Assembly: GCF_013407185.1 (NCBI RefSeq)
Contig: NZ_CP026995.1
Span: forward strand, 1,075,913 to 1,139,912
DNA from: Nitrosopumilus ureiphilus
GTDB taxonomy: Archaea; Thermoproteota; Nitrososphaeria; Nitrososphaerales; Nitrosopumilaceae
DNA: 64,000 nucleotides
Direction: 5' to 3'
Position numbers and translations under genes: made by a program. The number at the start of each line of letters is the position of its first letter. The first letter of the stretch is position 1. Below, piece after piece: positions 4,199 through 36,286 of this stretch. Under the pieces are notes generated by a model. The model had not been told where the DNA came from. It searched no databases and saw nothing but the letters and a program-made list of their open reading frames with translations.

Positions 4199-4834
4199 AT
4201 GAAAATAACTGATTTATTAACAAAAGCAAGAATTGAAAACAAAGAATTCTTGAAAGCCGAAGATCTTAGAAGATTTTGTAAGGGAACTAAATTCGATTAT
4301 AATTATGCAGTAAAATATCTTGTAGAACATAAATATCTAATTAGAATATTCAGGGGAATTTTTTATGTAAAATCCCATGAAGAAATAGCAACAAAACGAT
4401 TAAGCCACAATGTCTTAGAATTAATCTCTAAAGGATTAGAATTAAAAGGAATAAAAAATTGGTACTTTGGATTTCATACTGCACTAAAACTCAATAACCT
4501 CACACATGAATATTATACAACTGGAGATGTCATAAACGATTCAATCTCTAGACCCAAGTCAATGTTGATTGCAGATCATAAATTCAAATTTTATAAGCTT
4601 TCTCCAAAACTATTATCTTTTGGAATAACAAAAGAGAATAATATCAAATATTCCGATATTGAAAAAACTATTTTGGATTTTATCTATATCTGGAGTTACA
4701 ACGGAATATCAAACGAAAAAATATTGGCTGATGTATCTGAATGGACATCAAAAATTTCAGAAACACGTGTCAAAAAATATTCTATACGCTATCCTAATTC
4801 AACAAGAAAAATAATCAAGATGATATTGAAATGA
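4199..4834 (+). CDS. AbiEi-like antitoxin / winged-helix transcriptional regulator
   Basis: A 211-residue protein. The N-terminal ~60 residues resemble the winged helix of AbiEi-type antitoxins (EDLRRFCKGTKFDYNYAVKY then LVEHKYLIRIFRGIFYV, the typical 'L..G.l.ri.rG.Y' ending). The rest, with YFGFHTALKLNNL and YSDIEKTILDFIY, fits the AbiEi C-terminal antitoxin domain. It should repress its own promoter and oppose the next gene's nucleotidyltransferase. Stop and next start overlap as ATGA. Translation starts almost directly after AT-rich promoter sequence with no obvious Shine-Dalgarno, so the mRNA may be leaderless. Confidence 0.8.
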   Translation: MKITDLLTKARIENKEFLKAEDLRRFCKGTKFDYNYAVKYLVEHKYLIRIFRGIFYVKSHEEIATKRLSHNVLELISKGLELKGIKNWYFGFHTALKLNNLTHEYYTTGDVINDSISRPKSMLIADHKFKFYKLSPKLLSFGITKENNIKYSDIEKTILDFIYIWSYNGISNEKILADVSEWTSKISETRVKKYSIRYPNSTRKIIKMILK

Positions 4835-29509: not shown

Positions 29510-31636
29510 TCACAGTTCTATCAATACTGCAGCTTTCTCAGACTCTTCTAACTCTAACCTGACACCATCCAAAATATGTGAAGGTGAAGTAAGACTAGAG
29601 TAGTCCACTAATTTCAGATCATTGAGGAGGTACACTTGAGGTGCAATGTCGGAATGTCGAGATTCTAAGAATTCATCTAATTCTTCTAATACAGAAATCT
29701 TTCCACCTTGGAAAATTTTTCCGTTTTTTATAGAAAGTTTCAGTTTGCCATACCTATCTAAAACTAAAATATGATGTTGATTTTTTTTGCTAAATAATTT
29801 CTTGACTTCTATATGTCCTGTAAATACAAAATAATGATCAGTTTCATAGCTTAAATCAATCAGATCTACTGAAAGATCAATAATTTCACTAGCTCGTTTT
29901 TTGGCATCTTCTAATGTAAAAATATTCTTGGATGTTTCAACACTGTCCAATTCAACATTTCCAACGGCGGTTACACGTAATAGTGATTTTTCTGAAATGT
30001 ATTTGCTATCGATAACAATAGATTCTGGTACTGCGCCTTTGTCAACTAACATAGCATGTATTTTTTTATGAACTAGAGAAATTCTTTCAGGAGTTGGTTC
30101 AATCATAGTTTGTTCTATTTCCTCTTGAAGCATTGAAGATGCAACACCTATAGAAGAAATTACTTCGGCATGTTCTGCAAGTTCATATTTTATTCCTAAT
30201 TGTTTTGCAACAAAAGGAACTAGTACTGAAGCACCACCGCCACCCCCGATTAATTTAGTGGTTGAAGAATTCATTTTGAATTCTTTTAAAATATTACTAA
30301 TAGTTTTTGTAATTTCAAATGATGCAGTTTGAATAATAGACATCGCAATTTCATGGTAAGATACACCAACATGTTCTGCAAGTATCTTCAAAGCAATTTT
30401 TGCAGATTCTTGATTAGCATGAGAATAATCACCTTCTTCAATCATTCCTAAGGCATTGGCTGCACACGTGTTAGTAATTGCATATGTACCTTGATTACAC
30501 TCTATAGCAACATATTCTGCCTTATCATGTGGTTTTGGTTTTACCAAAATGATTTTTCCTGTTTTGATATCCTTAGGATCTGCAAAACATGAATATTTCA
30601 AACCAGCAATATGGGCACTTCTAGGACCAACATGAGATATTCTGTTTTTGTCCAAACCAACCATGCTTCCTCCTGCAACTCCTAAAATTCTGACATCCAT
30701 TGAACGAATACATGTAGGATGATCCTTCACAGTGACATATCGAATTTCAGGTTTACCATTTTTTATAATGCATATGTTAGTACTAGTTCCTCCAACTTCA
30801 ACAAAAATTCCATTTGTTATTTTAAGATGTAAAAGTGCACCTGCAACACTAGCGGCAGGTCCTGAAAGAACAGTAAGAATTGGCTTTCTCTTAAAGGTGT
30901 TCATACTGGAAACTCCTCCATCCCCCTTCATTATCATTAATGGTGCAGTAACTCCTGTTTTACGTATTGCATCTTCCACATAATTTGCTACTTGGAATGT
31001 TTTAGGTAAAACACTTGCATTAATTGCAGCAGTTAATGTTCGAATTTCTAATCCATAGATACCAGAAATCTCATGAGATGCAGTAGAAGGAAGATTTTGT
31101 TTAGTCGATCTATTCATGACAAATAATTCATTTGATGGATCATCTACACCAAATGCTTCTGTTGCAACAATTACTTTTGCTCCTTTATCCTTTAAACGTG
31201 AAATTGCTTCTTCGACTTCTTCTTCAGTAATTAAATGAGATGTATCTAGGAATTCATATACAGTTTTGATATCTTGATTAGTGTTGATTGAGGAATCTTG
31301 CAAATTAGTTCGTTTTATCACATCTTTTTTAGAAGGGCCCACACCCATGGCTATAATTCCCACTTTTGATGTATCAGATTCTAGTAATGCATTAATTGCT
31401 TGTGTAGTGCTGTGTGAAATTAATTCAATTTCATCAATATGAATTCCTGTATCTGCAAGAAGTTTTGTTAATGCAGAAACAATGCCTTCAGAGACTCCTT
31501 TTTCAGAAACATGTGTTGTCGGAACAGTTGATTTCCCCAAAATATTTCCGGTTTTTGCATCAATTGCAACTGCTTTGGTAAATGTTCCGCCTACATCAAT
31601 TCCCACTCTAATTCTTTTTTTAGGTATCACTAGCAA
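29510..31636 (-). CDS. Hydantoinase/oxoprolinase subunit A-like protein (HyuA)
   Basis: A 708-residue HyuA-type protein with the ASKHA ATPase fold. RVGIDVGGTFTKAVAID is the phosphate-1 loop, ISHSTTQAINALLESD the next conserved block, and GVAGGSMVGLD plus IGGGGGASVLVPFVA further glycine loops. HyuA works with HyuB in ATP-dependent opening of hydantoin or 5-oxoproline rings or in acetone carboxylase-type complexes; no hyuB lies beside it. Its start overlaps the FTR1 gene end by 17 bases. Confidence 0.85.
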   Translation of the reverse strand: MLVIPKKRIRVGIDVGGTFTKAVAIDAKTGNILGKSTVPTTHVSEKGVSEGIVSALTKLLADTGIHIDEIELISHSTTQAINALLESDTSKVGIIAMGVGPSKKDVIKRTNLQDSSINTNQDIKTVYEFLDTSHLITEEEVEEAISRLKDKGAKVIVATEAFGVDDPSNELFVMNRSTKQNLPSTASHEISGIYGLEIRTLTAAINASVLPKTFQVANYVEDAIRKTGVTAPLMIMKGDGGVSSMNTFKRKPILTVLSGPAASVAGALLHLKITNGIFVEVGGTSTNICIIKNGKPEIRYVTVKDHPTCIRSMDVRILGVAGGSMVGLDKNRISHVGPRSAHIAGLKYSCFADPKDIKTGKIILVKPKPHDKAEYVAIECNQGTYAITNTCAANALGMIEEGDYSHANQESAKIALKILAEHVGVSYHEIAMSIIQTASFEITKTISNILKEFKMNSSTTKLIGGGGGASVLVPFVAKQLGIKYELAEHAEVISSIGVASSMLQEEIEQTMIEPTPERISLVHKKIHAMLVDKGAVPESIVIDSKYISEKSLLRVTAVGNVELDSVETSKNIFTLEDAKKRASEIIDLSVDLIDLSYETDHYFVFTGHIEVKKLFSKKNQHHILVLDRYGKLKLSIKNGKIFQGGKISVLEELDEFLESRHSDIAPQVYLLNDLKLVDYSSLTSPSHILDGVRLELEESEKAAVLIEL

Positions 31637-33845
31637 TCCCTCTAGATTTTCTCATAGAAGCCAATTGATTTTCTTTTCTAGGTCTCATTATCAAGACATA
31701 TGTTGATGCAACTAAATAAATCCCAAACAAGATTATCTGGGCAACTATTGTTTCAAGTGTAGGATAAATGCCTGTCATTGCTGCCAAGTTGATATCCAAT
31801 CTTGGAATTATTCCAATTAGTCCTGTATATGGAATAATTTCAATAATTTGTAATTCACGAATTGCATTACCTAAAAATGCAATTGAAAGATATGCGCCTA
31901 CGCCCATAGTCAATCCAAATAATGCTCGTAATGGCAGTTTTTTGCCTAATTTTTTCATTATGAAATAAAGAACAAGTAAAGAAGCAATTCCTAAAACAAA
32001 TCCTAGTCCGACATAAACCTCCATGTATTTTGCAAATCCAGACATTGCTTGATAGAATAGGACAGTTTCAAACCCCTCTCTGTACACAGTAAAGAAAGAC
32101 AACATGACAAAAACCATAACGCTTCCAGTAGTAGTTGCTTGCCAAACTTTTGCTTTTACAAATTCCATCCATCTTTTATGTTCAATTTTATTCAGAACCC
32201 AGAAACTGACATAAAACAAAACAGCGGTCGCAGATAATGCTGCTATTGCCTCAATTAATTCTCTATTAACGCCTGAAATATCAATAATATATGAAGCAAT
32301 TACCCAAGTAACAGCTGTTGCACCAATTGCTGCCAGAATTCCATAATAGATGTATTTTTTGTATTGAGTATTTCGGGATGCCTCAAGGTATGTGACAATT
32401 GCGCCTAAAATCAGAACAGATTCTAAACCTTCTCTGAATATAATTGCAAATGAGGATGTGAAAGCAATTGAAGGGGCCAAAGTACCTGTCCCACTTACAA
32501 TTCTCTCAGATTCATCAAGATTTCTTTTAATTGCAATAGTTAATTCTTGAATTTGTTCATAATCTGCTTGTTGTTTTATAGAATTTCGAAGTTCAGCAAA
32601 TTGAAATTCTACTTCTAAAGTAAAATCAGGATCAATAGCACGTAATGGAATTTCAACAAATTCATAGCTATCAAGATAAGCGGTTCTTGCGGATGTATAT
32701 GCTGATTCATAGTCTCCATTTTCATATTGAATTAGTAATACTTCCAAAGTATCTCGAATGAAATCTATTTCATTTCTTACTCCTGTTTTTGCATCTTCGG
32801 AGGCATCACCCATTTCTTTCAAATTTTTATCAGAAAACGCATTAGCTTCAATTGTCAATTCAAAGATATCAGAGTCAGACACTTTTTGTTCGGCCAATTC
32901 AAGATCAGGTAAAATGGATTTTTCTATAAAGAGGATAATCCTATCTGAATCTTGTTTATTTTTTATCATCTGACGAAGTTCCTCCCTCATATCAATTTCT
33001 AATTTATAAAGAAGTTCTGAATCAACTACTTCGATGTCGGCTTCTAGATATTCAAAATTTTCTAAATATGCTTCTATGGCAAGCTCTTCAGCTCTTTGAT
33101 AATCACCACCATTCAATGATATTACTAGTTCATCATAGAGTTCATGAATTGTTTGATAAATATTCTGTTTGTCATAAACTACTGTCTCAGTACCATTAAG
33201 ATCTCTATTAATTGCGGTGATGAGAGTTCCTATAGAAACAAAATCATCTTTATTTTCTAATTTCCATTTTAGTTCATCAAGAAATGATTTCACCTCCAAA
33301 CTTAATCGGTCATTATAATTAGTTAATTCAAACAAATCGGATGAATGATTTACTAGAATGGTAGAAAGTGAATACGATGAATCATTATTATCAATATATG
33401 CAATTTGATATTGTTCGTCAACTATTGTTAATAGTTTAGAAACAACTTTACCAATATTTGGATTTTGTGGATTATAATCTTCTACCAGATCTTGCAAATT
33501 AGAAATATCTTGTAGCAAAATAGTTTGTTCAGTTTTTCCAATTTGGCTATGCATGTCTAATAGTATTACATGGATTTCATCAGTAAGTTCAGAATCATAT
33601 TCTCTTAGATAAGACAAACTATGGGGGAAAATCTCTGAAACAATTTTTGAAATATTCTTGGCATTATCGATATTTCCATCTGTTATGTTTTGTTCAATCA
33701 AGGAAACTGAAACCGACAAAAACTCTTTTATGAAAAGTACTTCGGTATCAACATCCGAAGTTTCTGCAAATATTGGCAAATTAGGCACTGACGATGACAC
33801 TAAAATCATAAAAAATATGATCCTAAAATGCCCACTGGAGATCAA
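31620..33845 (-). CDS. FTR1-family iron permease with long extracellular domain
   Basis: A 741-residue membrane protein. A signal peptide (FFMILVSSSVPNLPIFAE) is followed by ~430 extracellular, acidic, helical residues. The C-terminal ~280 residues have seven or so membrane segments with both REGLE motifs of FTR1/EfeU permeases (FREGLESV near 470, YREGFETV near 587), which bind ferric iron. The extracellular part has two copies of a motif (AYLENFEYLEADIEVVDSEL near 250; AYLDSYEFVE near 380) shared with the next gene's protein. High-affinity iron uptake is the likely role. Confidence 0.88.
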   Translation of the reverse strand: MISSGHFRIIFFMILVSSSVPNLPIFAETSDVDTEVLFIKEFLSVSVSLIEQNITDGNIDNAKNISKIVSEIFPHSLSYLREYDSELTDEIHVILLDMHSQIGKTEQTILLQDISNLQDLVEDYNPQNPNIGKVVSKLLTIVDEQYQIAYIDNNDSSYSLSTILVNHSSDLFELTNYNDRLSLEVKSFLDELKWKLENKDDFVSIGTLITAINRDLNGTETVVYDKQNIYQTIHELYDELVISLNGGDYQRAEELAIEAYLENFEYLEADIEVVDSELLYKLEIDMREELRQMIKNKQDSDRIILFIEKSILPDLELAEQKVSDSDIFELTIEANAFSDKNLKEMGDASEDAKTGVRNEIDFIRDTLEVLLIQYENGDYESAYTSARTAYLDSYEFVEIPLRAIDPDFTLEVEFQFAELRNSIKQQADYEQIQELTIAIKRNLDESERIVSGTGTLAPSIAFTSSFAIIFREGLESVLILGAIVTYLEASRNTQYKKYIYYGILAAIGATAVTWVIASYIIDISGVNRELIEAIAALSATAVLFYVSFWVLNKIEHKRWMEFVKAKVWQATTTGSVMVFVMLSFFTVYREGFETVLFYQAMSGFAKYMEVYVGLGFVLGIASLLVLYFIMKKLGKKLPLRALFGLTMGVGAYLSIAFLGNAIRELQIIEIIPYTGLIGIIPRLDINLAAMTGIYPTLETIVAQIILFGIYLVASTYVLIMRPRKENQLASMRKSRGIASDT

Positions 33846-33902
33846 TGTAAGAAATCTCTTAACTCAACTTATAAACCAGATTTTCATTCTAAAGGTATAG
33901 AA

Positions 33903-35462
33903 TCAGGGTATTTTGATTATTGAAAGATTAAGTTTTTTTGAAAATATAACGACAGTGGTAATGGATACCAGTAAAACAAGCAGTGTAATTGTACCAAATT
34001 CTGGAACAATTTTTTCAGCGATAGTTAAATCTTCAAGAATCATATCTACATGAGCATTTACATCTTCAGAAGGCGCCCCAGTCCTGATCATCTCTCTTAA
34101 TTCTTCCCTTAGATCATGTTCAATTTTTTCCATTAATTCAGGATCATGATATCCTAGATCACCCTCAATGAATTCATAATTATCAAGATATGCAGTAGTT
34201 GCAAATTGTAATGCCATATCATTATGTCCTAAAGCATAATGTTCCTTGACATCATTTAACAAATCTTTAATTTTTGCTACATATTCTAAAGAAGTGATTT
34301 CCTCAACACCACCATACAATTCAGCTAATTGTGCAACATTATTTTGAGACTTGGCAACAAGGATGCCAATTTCAGATGGATTTCCTTTAGAATCAATAAT
34401 GGATTTTATTTGGTTTAGATTATTCTTCAAAGCCTCAGTATCGGTATTTGAGATTTCATTGAAAGAATCATAATGAGTCTCAAATAAGGTGATTGCTTTA
34501 TTCAAAAATACAAGGGTCTCATCATATTCCTCCTGATTAATTATTTTTCCACCATCAACAGCATCAGCATATTCTTCATCTACAAGATTCAATCTATCCC
34601 TGATTGCAGATAATGCCAACCCCACACTAGAAAGATCTTGTCCTTCATATTCTCTTACAATTAATTCAACCCCTTCAGTAATCTGAACAAGCTTATTTTT
34701 CATTTCAAGGATGCTAGTCTCACTCGATGTAGTTGCAACAGATTCTTCCATTTCATGCAATAATTCTGATGCAGTTTCTTCACCTAATTTTTCAATTACA
34801 GATGGGTGTAGTGTTCTATAATAGTATAATCCCTCATAGGTGAATTTTTTAGCACTGGCAACATCTTCTTTCTCTAGTGCACCAACTGCTTCTTCCAGCT
34901 CTTCAACTATTTTTAATTTAAAAATTCCCAACAATTCATTTCGTATTACATCTCCATACTCTTCAATTTCATCAGCATCAGCAGTGATCTCTTCAATGGC
35001 ATGATTAGTTACAAATGATTCTTTTTCAGATATTTTGAATTTTTTTTCCATTACAGAATACCAATTCAAAAGTTGTTCTGAATTTTGTGTTTTTATGGAT
35101 TGATCAATTTTCAAATATGCTATAGTGTAAATGGTCTTATCTACAATTTGTCGGTTTAATTCAGCCATAGAAACATCACCAGAATTGAGATTAGAAATAA
35201 TATCTGAAAATGCATTTTCAATCAAAGTGTTGCTTGCAGGATCTGATTCTAATGCGGCTTGTTTGAAATTATTTTCATATATTGACTTTGCTTGATTTAC
35301 TTTATCTAGTGCATCGTTAATCTGAGATGATTTTTCAGCATCAGAAAGTAATGACTTGATTGATGCCCATTCTTCACCCAATGTAAATGAATAACCTGGA
35401 GGAATTCCAGAAATCAATAAACTAATCACGGCTATTCCCAAAATAATTTTTAAGTTATTCAC
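33903..35462 (-). CDS. Secreted protein with PEFG-type C-terminal sorting signal
   Basis: A 519-residue exported protein: signal peptide (IILGAIV-like hydrophobic start, ISLLISGIPPGYSF), an acidic helical body, and a C-terminal VPEFGTITLLVLLVSIT segment followed by basic residues. This is the PEFG-CTERM tripartite signal of thaumarchaeal archaeosortase substrates. Near residues 411-459, AYLDNYEFIEGDLGYHDPEL and DLREELREMI match the repeats in the adjacent FTR1 protein; a weaker copy is near 195-240. It may act as the extracellular metal-delivery partner of the permease. Same strand, 57 bases apart. Confidence 0.85.
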   Translation of the reverse strand: MNNLKIILGIAVISLLISGIPPGYSFTLGEEWASIKSLLSDAEKSSQINDALDKVNQAKSIYENNFKQAALESDPASNTLIENAFSDIISNLNSGDVSMAELNRQIVDKTIYTIAYLKIDQSIKTQNSEQLLNWYSVMEKKFKISEKESFVTNHAIEEITADADEIEEYGDVIRNELLGIFKLKIVEELEEAVGALEKEDVASAKKFTYEGLYYYRTLHPSVIEKLGEETASELLHEMEESVATTSSETSILEMKNKLVQITEGVELIVREYEGQDLSSVGLALSAIRDRLNLVDEEYADAVDGGKIINQEEYDETLVFLNKAITLFETHYDSFNEISNTDTEALKNNLNQIKSIIDSKGNPSEIGILVAKSQNNVAQLAELYGGVEEITSLEYVAKIKDLLNDVKEHYALGHNDMALQFATTAYLDNYEFIEGDLGYHDPELMEKIEHDLREELREMIRTGAPSEDVNAHVDMILEDLTIAEKIVPEFGTITLLVLLVSITTVVIFSKKLNLSIIKIP

Positions 35463-35534
35463 ACCTCTTCAAAAGATGATTATGTATTAGAACTATTATT
35501 AGATTCCATTATCTTATTCTAAATCGTTAGAACA

Positions 35535-35885
35535 TTAATCATTAGTGTTTTTGTTAGGATATAAATTCAAAACAGGTTCAAGTTCAGTCAACGTGATTTC
35601 AACTTTTCCAATACGACTTTTGTATTGTTTTATTTTTTTGCCCTCTCCAGATATTATGAATTGATCAACTTCAATTAGGGCAAGATCCTCCAAGTTAGAA
35701 AGTGTTTTGTATACTGTAGATAGTGATATGCTTAATTCTTTAGAAAGTTGAGTTGCATCTTTTGGAGTATCTTTAACAGAAAACAATACTGCTCGTGTAC
35801 AAACATTACTAAGAGATTCAATAATTTTTTGAGTTATGTCAAATTCAGATAATTGAATGATGTTAGGTTTTGACATTAAACCCAC
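35535..35885 (-). CDS. Winged-helix transcriptional regulator (ArsR-like)
   Basis: A 116-residue wHTH protein. TQLSKELSISLSTVYKTLSN is the recognition helix region and EDLALIEVDQFIISGEGKKI the wing. A start at MSKPNI (35876) is possible. Head-to-tail with a close paralogue, abutting it without a gap. Both lie between FTR1 and CbtAB genes, so metal-responsive control is likely, though no obvious metal-site Cys pair is seen. Confidence 0.85.
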   Translation of the reverse strand: MGLMSKPNIIQLSEFDITQKIIESLSNVCTRAVLFSVKDTPKDATQLSKELSISLSTVYKTLSNLEDLALIEVDQFIISGEGKKIKQYKSRIGKVEITLTELEPVLNLYPNKNTND

Positions 35886-36215
35886 TCAGTTTGAGACTAA
35901 TGTAAGTGTAGGCTCAGGTTTTCTAATAGAGATATCTGCTTTACTTATTCTGCTTCGGTAAACTTTGTATTTTCTACCTTTATCAGATAACAGCCATTTT
36001 TCAACTTCAATTAATGTAAGCTCTTCAAGATCTCCTAATTTTTTGTAAACGGAGCTAAGAGGAATTTTGAGTTTAACGGAAAGTTCTGCAGCTGTATTGC
36101 CTTTTTTAATTATGGAAAACAAAATTGCTCTAGATTCAGAATCTGCCAACGCTTCAATTACTTTTTGAGTAATATCATATTTTTTCAATTGTGGCAAAGT
36201 TATTCTTCTTGACAT
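35886..36215 (-). CDS. Winged-helix transcriptional regulator, paralogue
   Basis: A 109-residue paralogue of the next gene: YDITQKVIEALADSESRAIL, AELSVKLKIPLSSVYKKLGD and EELTLIEVEKWLLSDKGRKY line up throughout. A tandem duplication is the simplest origin. It may regulate the cbtBA genes just upstream on the same strand and the FTR1 block downstream; dimers or heterodimers are possible. Confidence 0.85.
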   Translation of the reverse strand: MSRRITLPQLKKYDITQKVIEALADSESRAILFSIIKKGNTAAELSVKLKIPLSSVYKKLGDLEELTLIEVEKWLLSDKGRKYKVYRSRISKADISIRKPEPTLTLVSN

Positions 36216-36286
36216 GCAAATATCAAAAATTATTTTCAGGTATTTAAACGAGATGTTTCCGTTCTCATTCTAAAGAATTAGAACAT

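Follow-up and report, generated by a model that had tools for sequence, protein, structure and literature searches.

An FTR1-family permease and a PEFG-CTERM surface protein share acidic outer modules in a putative metal-uptake cassette of ammonia-oxidising archaea

The stretch analysed here (the window) comprises 64,000 nucleotides (nt) of Nitrosopumilus ureiphilus contig NZ_CP026995.1, positions 1,075,913 to 1,139,912. The host genome is a single contig of 2.17 Mb, and among named organisms Nitrosopumilus, Nitrosarchaeum and other ammonia-oxidising Nitrososphaerota are closest to it. On the minus strand of the window, the gene order along transcription was CbtA, two winged helix-turn-helix genes (wHTH1 and wHTH2), a PEFG-CTERM surface protein, an FTR1-family permease and a HyuA-type gene. 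The surface protein and the permease share their outer modules, and it is this pair that we consider first. All the parts in the list that follows lie on the minus strand.

33903..35462, minus strand: PEFG-CTERM surface protein, 519 residues, with signal peptide, helical modules and PEFG tail
34005..34271, minus strand: clear shared module of the PEFG protein, residues 398-486, AYLDNYEFIE...DLREELREMI
33924..34010, minus strand: PEFG-CTERM sorting signal, residues 485-513 (TIGR04296, E = 4e-10)
31620..33845, minus strand: FTR1-family permease, 741 residues, with a long extracytoplasmic N-terminal region (PF03239, REXXE motifs, AlphaFold2 model)
33480..33755, minus strand: FTR1 outer module 1, residues 31-122, degenerate (AlphaFold2 helical bundle; aligned with the surface-protein family)
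33195..33455, minus strand: FTR1 outer module 2, residues 131-217, degenerate (AlphaFold2 model; weak match of the module profile at 181-223)
32880..33149, minus strand: FTR1 outer module 3, residues 233-322, AYLENFEYLE...DMREELRQMI (module profile, tree)
32496..32759, minus strand: FTR1 outer module 4, residues 363-450, AYLDSYEFVE...FAELRNSI, permease-proximal (module profile, tree)
31623..32480, minus strand: FTR1 permease domain, residues 456-741, with two REXXE motifs

FTR1 scored 55.8 bits against PF03239 (gathering cut-off 25.3), and its two REXXE motifs, REGLE at 471-475 and REGFE at 589-593, sit in membrane helices and were invariant in 28 homologues. The protein stayed below the EfeU cut-offs, with 68.7 against 255 bits for NF041756 and 110.5 against 303.8 bits for TIGR00145. 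A second possible ATG start is present at codon 13 of the reading frame. The surface protein reached 39.2 bits with the PEFG-CTERM model TIGR04296 (cut-off 25).

The original prediction held that the two proteins have an extracellular repeat in common, occurring at least twice in the permease. Both genes were found where it had placed them, and BLASTP of the PEFG protein against FTR1 supported homology, with E = 2e-13 over 236 residues and a second match at 9e-9. The AYL motif did occur twice in FTR1, as AYLENFEYLE at 259-268 and AYLDSYEFVE at 389-398, but the exact REELR(E/Q)MI element only once: the first copy is followed by DMREELRQMI and the second by the diverged FAELRNSI. In the PEFG protein, AYLDNYEFIE at 424-433 is followed by DLREELREMI. 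A search with the peptide pattern gave 240 matching stretches in 257 billion bases of genomes, 215 of which encode true relatives. The further proposal, of a sorted surface protein in which the permease's own module recurs, was borne out by profile-profile comparison. With HH-suite, an alignment of 30 surface proteins matched one of the outer regions from 28 FTR1 proteins at Prob 100% and E = 6.5e-43 over 285 columns, with PEFG residues ~138-490 co-linear with FTR1 ~40-324. Judged from these alignments, the sharing is larger than one motif and spans about three tandem modules. A hidden Markov model (HMM) built from three obvious copies detected two clear modules and weaker ones in every full FTR1 examined among the related loci of ammonia-oxidising archaea (AOA), and every surface protein gave one clear module or more.

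The module consensus was A..(A)YL[DE]..[YF]E..E, a short loop, and E...RE.LR..I. The acidic clusters on which the prediction depended were present, the repeats being strongly acidic. Every one of the 37 modules first collected has Ala at column 20, the consensus Tyr and the same three Glu (those of Y-E-x-x-E and a third Glu), and E430, E433, E448 and R452 of the PEFG protein were likewise invariant in 30 homologues. The outer domains contained 20-21% Asp plus Glu, with a pI of 4.2-4.4, no Cys and few His or Met. In the AlphaFold2 model of FTR1, successive helical bundles were seen at 31-122, 131-217, 226-324 and 350-451, and the outer region is thus modelled as four tandem four-helix modules of ~90 residues; the confidence (pLDDT, the predicted local distance difference test) was mostly 78-94 in the ectodomain and low in the permease half. 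The PEFG protein was also modelled as successive helical bundles (pLDDT 79.5, predicted template-modelling score 0.55). Its YExxE segment and third Glu were located on consecutive helices, 414-439 and 441-461. Because these helices are antiparallel, successive and joined by a short loop, E433 is expected to lie near E448. A tree built from 150 modules placed module 4, the one next to the permease, in a single clade (100/100), and FTR1 module 3 among the surface modules, which agrees with the co-linearity of the two proteins. In another genome (G043), FTR1 (L078:5646-8462) carries modules at 276-361 and 386-471 that are identical in sequence, the apparent product of a recent tandem duplication.

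The co-occurrence expected from the prediction was almost perfect. It was counted in 150 Nitrosopumilaceae genomes of 85% completeness or more. Of the 46 that carry FTR1, 44 also encode modules in a protein other than FTR1, as do 2 of the 104 without FTR1 (p = 5.5e-33, a descriptive value since related genomes are non-independent). The figures come from the matches listed and the number of matches in each genome. In 37 genomes of the same genus, eight had both genes, none had FTR1 alone, and one, 81% complete, had the module protein alone (p = 2e-7, to be read likewise). The surface gene and FTR1 were adjacent in Nitrosopumilus, Nitrosarchaeum and other marine thaumarchaeal lineages; the surface gene could be upstream, downstream or divergent, yet it remained by FTR1. 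By these genomic patterns, FTR1 and the surface module protein appear to form a functional pair.

The genes around the pair and a recurrent palindrome, which we treat as a candidate operator, are as follows.

29510..31636, minus strand: orphan HyuA-type (hydantoinase/oxoprolinase family) ATPase (PF01968, PF05378)
33887..33902, unstranded: putative operator TTCTA-N6-TAGAA 5' of FTR1, immediately before the TATA-like TTTATAAG
35517..35532, unstranded: putative operator TTCTA-N6-TAGAA 5' of the PEFG gene
36268..36283, unstranded: putative operator TTCTA-N6-TAGAA 5' of the wHTH gene pair, 19 nt ahead of TTTAAATA
35535..35885, minus strand: wHTH2, 116 residues, winged-helix, wHTH1-like, candidate regulator (weak helix-turn-helix matches under cut-offs)
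35886..36215, minus strand: wHTH1, 109 residues, winged-helix, TrmB/ArsR/Sta1-like, candidate regulator (weak helix-turn-helix matches under cut-offs; conserved beside the cassette)
37018-36287, minus strand: CbtA, cobalt-type transporter gene, adjoining the cassette

The operator stands 69 nt from the start codon of the wHTH pair, 71 nt from that of PEFG and 58 nt from that of FTR1. By pattern search, the strict palindrome occurred 12 times in the genome, against 7 for a reversed control; three of the 12 sites fall within 2.4 kb at this locus, and the other nine are mostly intragenic. The flanked form ATTCTA-N6-TAGAAT was typically present at 1-5 sites per genome in 60 same-genus genomes, with the reversed control almost never seen; many of these sites lie inside a conserved gene, so not all are regulatory. 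A first, broad pattern with 2 mismatches showed no excess in the window over shuffles, so only the strict palindrome is informative. In related loci, an operator within ~200 nt upstream was found for 12/23 FTR1, 19/50 surface genes (a set including distant taxa), 9/19 wHTH1 and 4/5 PhnD genes. It was rare before other genes (5/425) and was not found before HyuA (0/25), wHTH2 (0/15) or CbtA (0/13). Spacings taken directly from the sequences were typically 11-12 nt from the operator end to TTTAAATA in FTR1 promoters of the genus and about 19 nt in wHTH1 promoters. This position upstream of the TATA element would suit an activator, and the wHTH proteins may regulate the cassette. Co-regulation of FTR1 and the PEFG gene, on which the prediction could have failed, is thus suggested by a conserved operator common to both, as far as sequence can tell. 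A near-palindrome with one mismatch, TTCTAATCCTTTAGAG, was noted at window positions 4426-4441, distant from the cassette.

The start of the HyuA-type gene overlaps the FTR1 stop by 17 nt, and an overlap of 4-25 nt was seen in nearly all loci with both genes intact, so that the gene is probably translationally coupled to FTR1. Like the HyuA proteins of hydantoinase, 5-oxoprolinase and acetophenone carboxylase, its product contains PF01968 and PF05378 (190 and 85 bits, both above cut-off), but it fell far under every equivalog cut-off. It differs from those proteins in its coupling to a permease in a genome without HyuB. HyuB (PF02538) was not found in the window's genome or in any of 36 same-genus genomes, which indicates that the HyuA-type gene is not a member of an ordinary hydantoinase/oxoprolinase pair. 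Among 61 genomes, the gene was present in all ten with a module-type FTR1 (eight of the same genus, G043 and G046) and in 0/51 others (chance 1e-11 if genomes are independent). Six genomes whose FTR1 is short and scores highly (E 1e-53 or lower) were without it.

EfeO/EfeM is an M75 periplasmic protein. Bacterial EfeUOB/EfeUO-M systems resemble the present locus in pairing an FTR1-family permease (EfeU) with a dedicated, all-helical extracytoplasmic protein bearing Y-E-x-x-E. In EfeM, whose partner is an FTR1-family permease, the Site IV residues Glu90, Glu93 and Glu97 lie in the segment YYESVEPIAELF (PMC9174327); matched by eye, Glu90 and Glu93 fall in YYESVE. The best natural Protein Data Bank (PDB) match of a 9-sequence surface profile was EfeM (7q1g), at a weak E of 0.041, and there the YYESVE segment aligned with a degenerate PEFG module, not with the clear one. 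The M75 fold has two four-helix bundles; Foldseek with the PEFG model, which shows tandem helical bundles, gave EfeM (prob 0.97) and EfeO (0.94), but with E ~0.2-0.5 and among many unrelated bundles; with the FTR1 model, whose permease half is of low confidence, no EfeM or EfeO was among the matches listed. The M75 profile PF09375 had no match in the window's genome. Its best match in 61 genomes, at E 0.0019 and under cut-off, lay inside a PEFG protein (G002) and was the sole same-genus match better than E 0.01. The HxxE and GEEDRY signatures were not among the conserved columns of 30 surface proteins, and profile-profile comparison with a 13-row M75 alignment gave Prob < 8%. As this is not significant, we do not claim EfeO membership, and the likeness is that the pair may work like EfeUO. 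The weak EfeM and M75 signals agree in direction, none is significant singly, and four-helix bundles give false likenesses.

Apart from that EfeM match, PDB sequence searches with the modules returned chance and designed-protein matches and the EfeO-like alginate-binding Algp7 (E 0.65). VIA-align matches were generic helical bundles (cytochrome b562 fusions, sensors) and uninformative, with EfeM and EfeO not among the 50 matches listed. The long bacterial EfeU proteins of Priestia and Pantoea, considered as module carriers, gave no significant module match in the two proteins compared. The locus departs from EfeUO in the fusion of modules to the permease as well, in the archaeal sorting tail of the surface protein and in having a HyuA-type ATPase as conserved partner; the permease, under the EfeU cut-offs, also differs from EfeU. 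FTR1/OFeT permeases (PF03239; yeast Ftr1p and the bacterial FTR1 family) share the two REXXE motifs and the multi-helix membrane domain, but the AOA protein has in addition a ~430-residue outer domain of four modules.

The shared co-linear modules, the co-occurrence, the gene order and overlap, the operator conservation and the conserved acidic residues are the observations on which we base our reading. They suggest, with a probability of roughly 0.6, a co-regulated, EfeUO-like cassette of AOA for capture and import of a metal, probably iron. The scheme below goes further by inference, in placing the PEFG protein at the surface, in having it bind a metal and in naming that metal, in the hand-over, in the choice of regulator and in the part given to the ATPase. 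The PEFG-sorted protein, made of FTR1-type outer modules, would be located in or under the surface layer (S-layer) and would capture metal ions, most likely iron, at its acidic Y-E-x-x-E sites. The metal would be handed to the matching modules on FTR1, whose two REXXE motifs would move it through the membrane, and the HyuA-type ATPase would act at the cytoplasmic side. The paired wHTH proteins, or another regulator, may switch the units through the TTCTA-N6-TAGAA operators just upstream of the TATA boxes.

Several points weigh against this scheme. A stand-alone module protein occurs without FTR1 in two genomes (G137 and G143), and in two others (G144 and G158) the modules are found solely inside FTR1 itself. 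An adjacent surface gene was not seen at most Nitrososphaera FTR1 loci. About half of the tested FTR1 starts are without an operator, partly in distant taxa or at miscalled starts. As structures, the modules are unremarkable four-helix bundles that match many unrelated proteins, the genomes counted are related, and the choice of iron derives from the FTR1 family only, other metals including copper being possible.

The modules might be structural or docking elements, by which the surface protein and the permease outer domain bind each other or the S-layer via acidic helical bundles, with no metal bound. Generic four-helix bundles in long tandem arrays would fit such a role, as would the joining of the module to other C-terminal domains in other lineages (CFI-box, WING-49, PEFP-type tails) and the single-module proteins elsewhere in the genome. 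However, retention of Y-E-x-x-E and the third Glu in 37/37 modules exceeds the needs of a spacer, and the stand-alone protein is nearly absent from FTR1-less genomes, so that we regard docking without metal as unlikely. A metal system for copper or another divalent metal in place of iron is rather improbable. FTR1-family permeases are not necessarily iron-specific, the copper need of AOA is high (PMC7785015), a CbtA cobalt-type transporter gene adjoins the cassette and, according to the relevant passages of PMC9723733, a Fet3-type partner is not coupled to FTR1 in AOA; but the ligands are all carboxylates, the Cys-free outer domains poor in His and Met are unlike typical Cu sites, both REXXE motifs are kept, and CbtA was without an operator in 13/13 cases. 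That the surface protein and FTR1 are mere neighbours, whose common domain came from an old duplication and which have unrelated jobs today, is very improbable, for although stand-alone modules are old, occur in Nitrososphaeraceae too, often apart from FTR1, and the sampled genomes are non-independent, the 44/46 against 2/104 co-occurrence and an operator common to both genes even with differing gene order (upstream, downstream or divergent) argue otherwise.

In most of the FTR1-less Nitrosopumilus loci inspected, the gene order was CbtA-wHTH1-wHTH2-[operator]-phnD. At L089:3654-6368, phnD-phnC-phnE followed the wHTH pair and operator and preceded an opposed PurP-like gene; phnD was also found behind the pair and operator at L091:4391-5488 and L086:2572-3570. 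PhnD-like genes were present in 23/29 FTR1-less and 2/8 FTR1-bearing same-genus genomes (p = 0.008). The same slot thus appears to be one regulated site that holds either the FTR1 cassette or an ATP-binding cassette (ABC) importer. The slot PhnD gave a weak Transferrin match, which makes a metal role possible. We tentatively raise, as a doubtful extension of the EfeUO-like cassette, an undescribed type of archaeal iron acquisition in which an S-layer-anchored copy of the outer domain acts with FTR1 and an orphan HyuA-type ATPase under a dedicated operator, and in which the phnDCE-like genes, in the slot and under the regulator that the FTR1 cassette would use, encode an importer of iron or another metal, not of phosphonate. 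If so, archaea like N. maritimus would have in this transporter their missing specific importer of iron (or another metal).

AOA are among the most abundant marine cells, and their iron uptake is poorly understood. FTR1 comes with a conserved surface protein, an ATPase and an operator, which may point to a dedicated metal-uptake system and are testable candidates for iron uptake in some AOA; the phnDCE-like swap at the same operator offers a candidate importer for others and a ground to doubt the 'phosphonate' label. Relevant passages of two marine AOA metal surveys (PMC6776035, PMC9723733) already record FTR1 without a Fet3 partner in Ca. Nitrosopelagicus brevis and other AOA, and state that N. 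maritimus has none of the genes by which a known system of inorganic iron uptake would be recognised; neither the partner protein at the surface nor the operator, the HyuA-type gene or the phnDCE-like swap is mentioned there. The Nitrosopelagicus loci that we scanned had HyuA and a module surface protein preceded by the operator. Our search of the open literature found no description of the surface partner, the operator, the HyuA-type partner or the slot swap. We judge FTR1-based metal uptake to be a known kind, of which the form with modules, HyuA and operator is a variant.

The tails of the surface proteins vary: Nitrosopumilus and Nitrosarchaeum have PEFG, Nitrosotenuis and some Nitrososphaera a PEFP-like tail, and Nitrosopelagicus a CFI-box domain. 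Most surface partners (L064, L065, L066, L105, L108 and others) share a further His/Glu-rich N-terminal segment, LEETLGHFWA.E.NLDD.N.ELAL.HATHPIAELY, which the window's PEFG protein lacks. The module protein at L109:4263-5510 ends in a WING-49 domain in place of the PEFG tail and contains GCCGMHMRGHHGMHHSPHM, a stretch rich in His, Met and Cys. A second module protein in the window's genome, at L072:5963-6790 (G000:C1 about 1655962-1656789) and far from FTR1, combines one module with CFI-box-CTERM, a C-terminal domain also found in the Nitrosopelagicus surface partners. An AOA-type module protein is also encoded on L141, recorded as Gammaproteobacteria bacterium BBSC-SA02; its module grouped with the archaeal ones, and the contig is probably archaeal, its assembly mislabelled or mixed.

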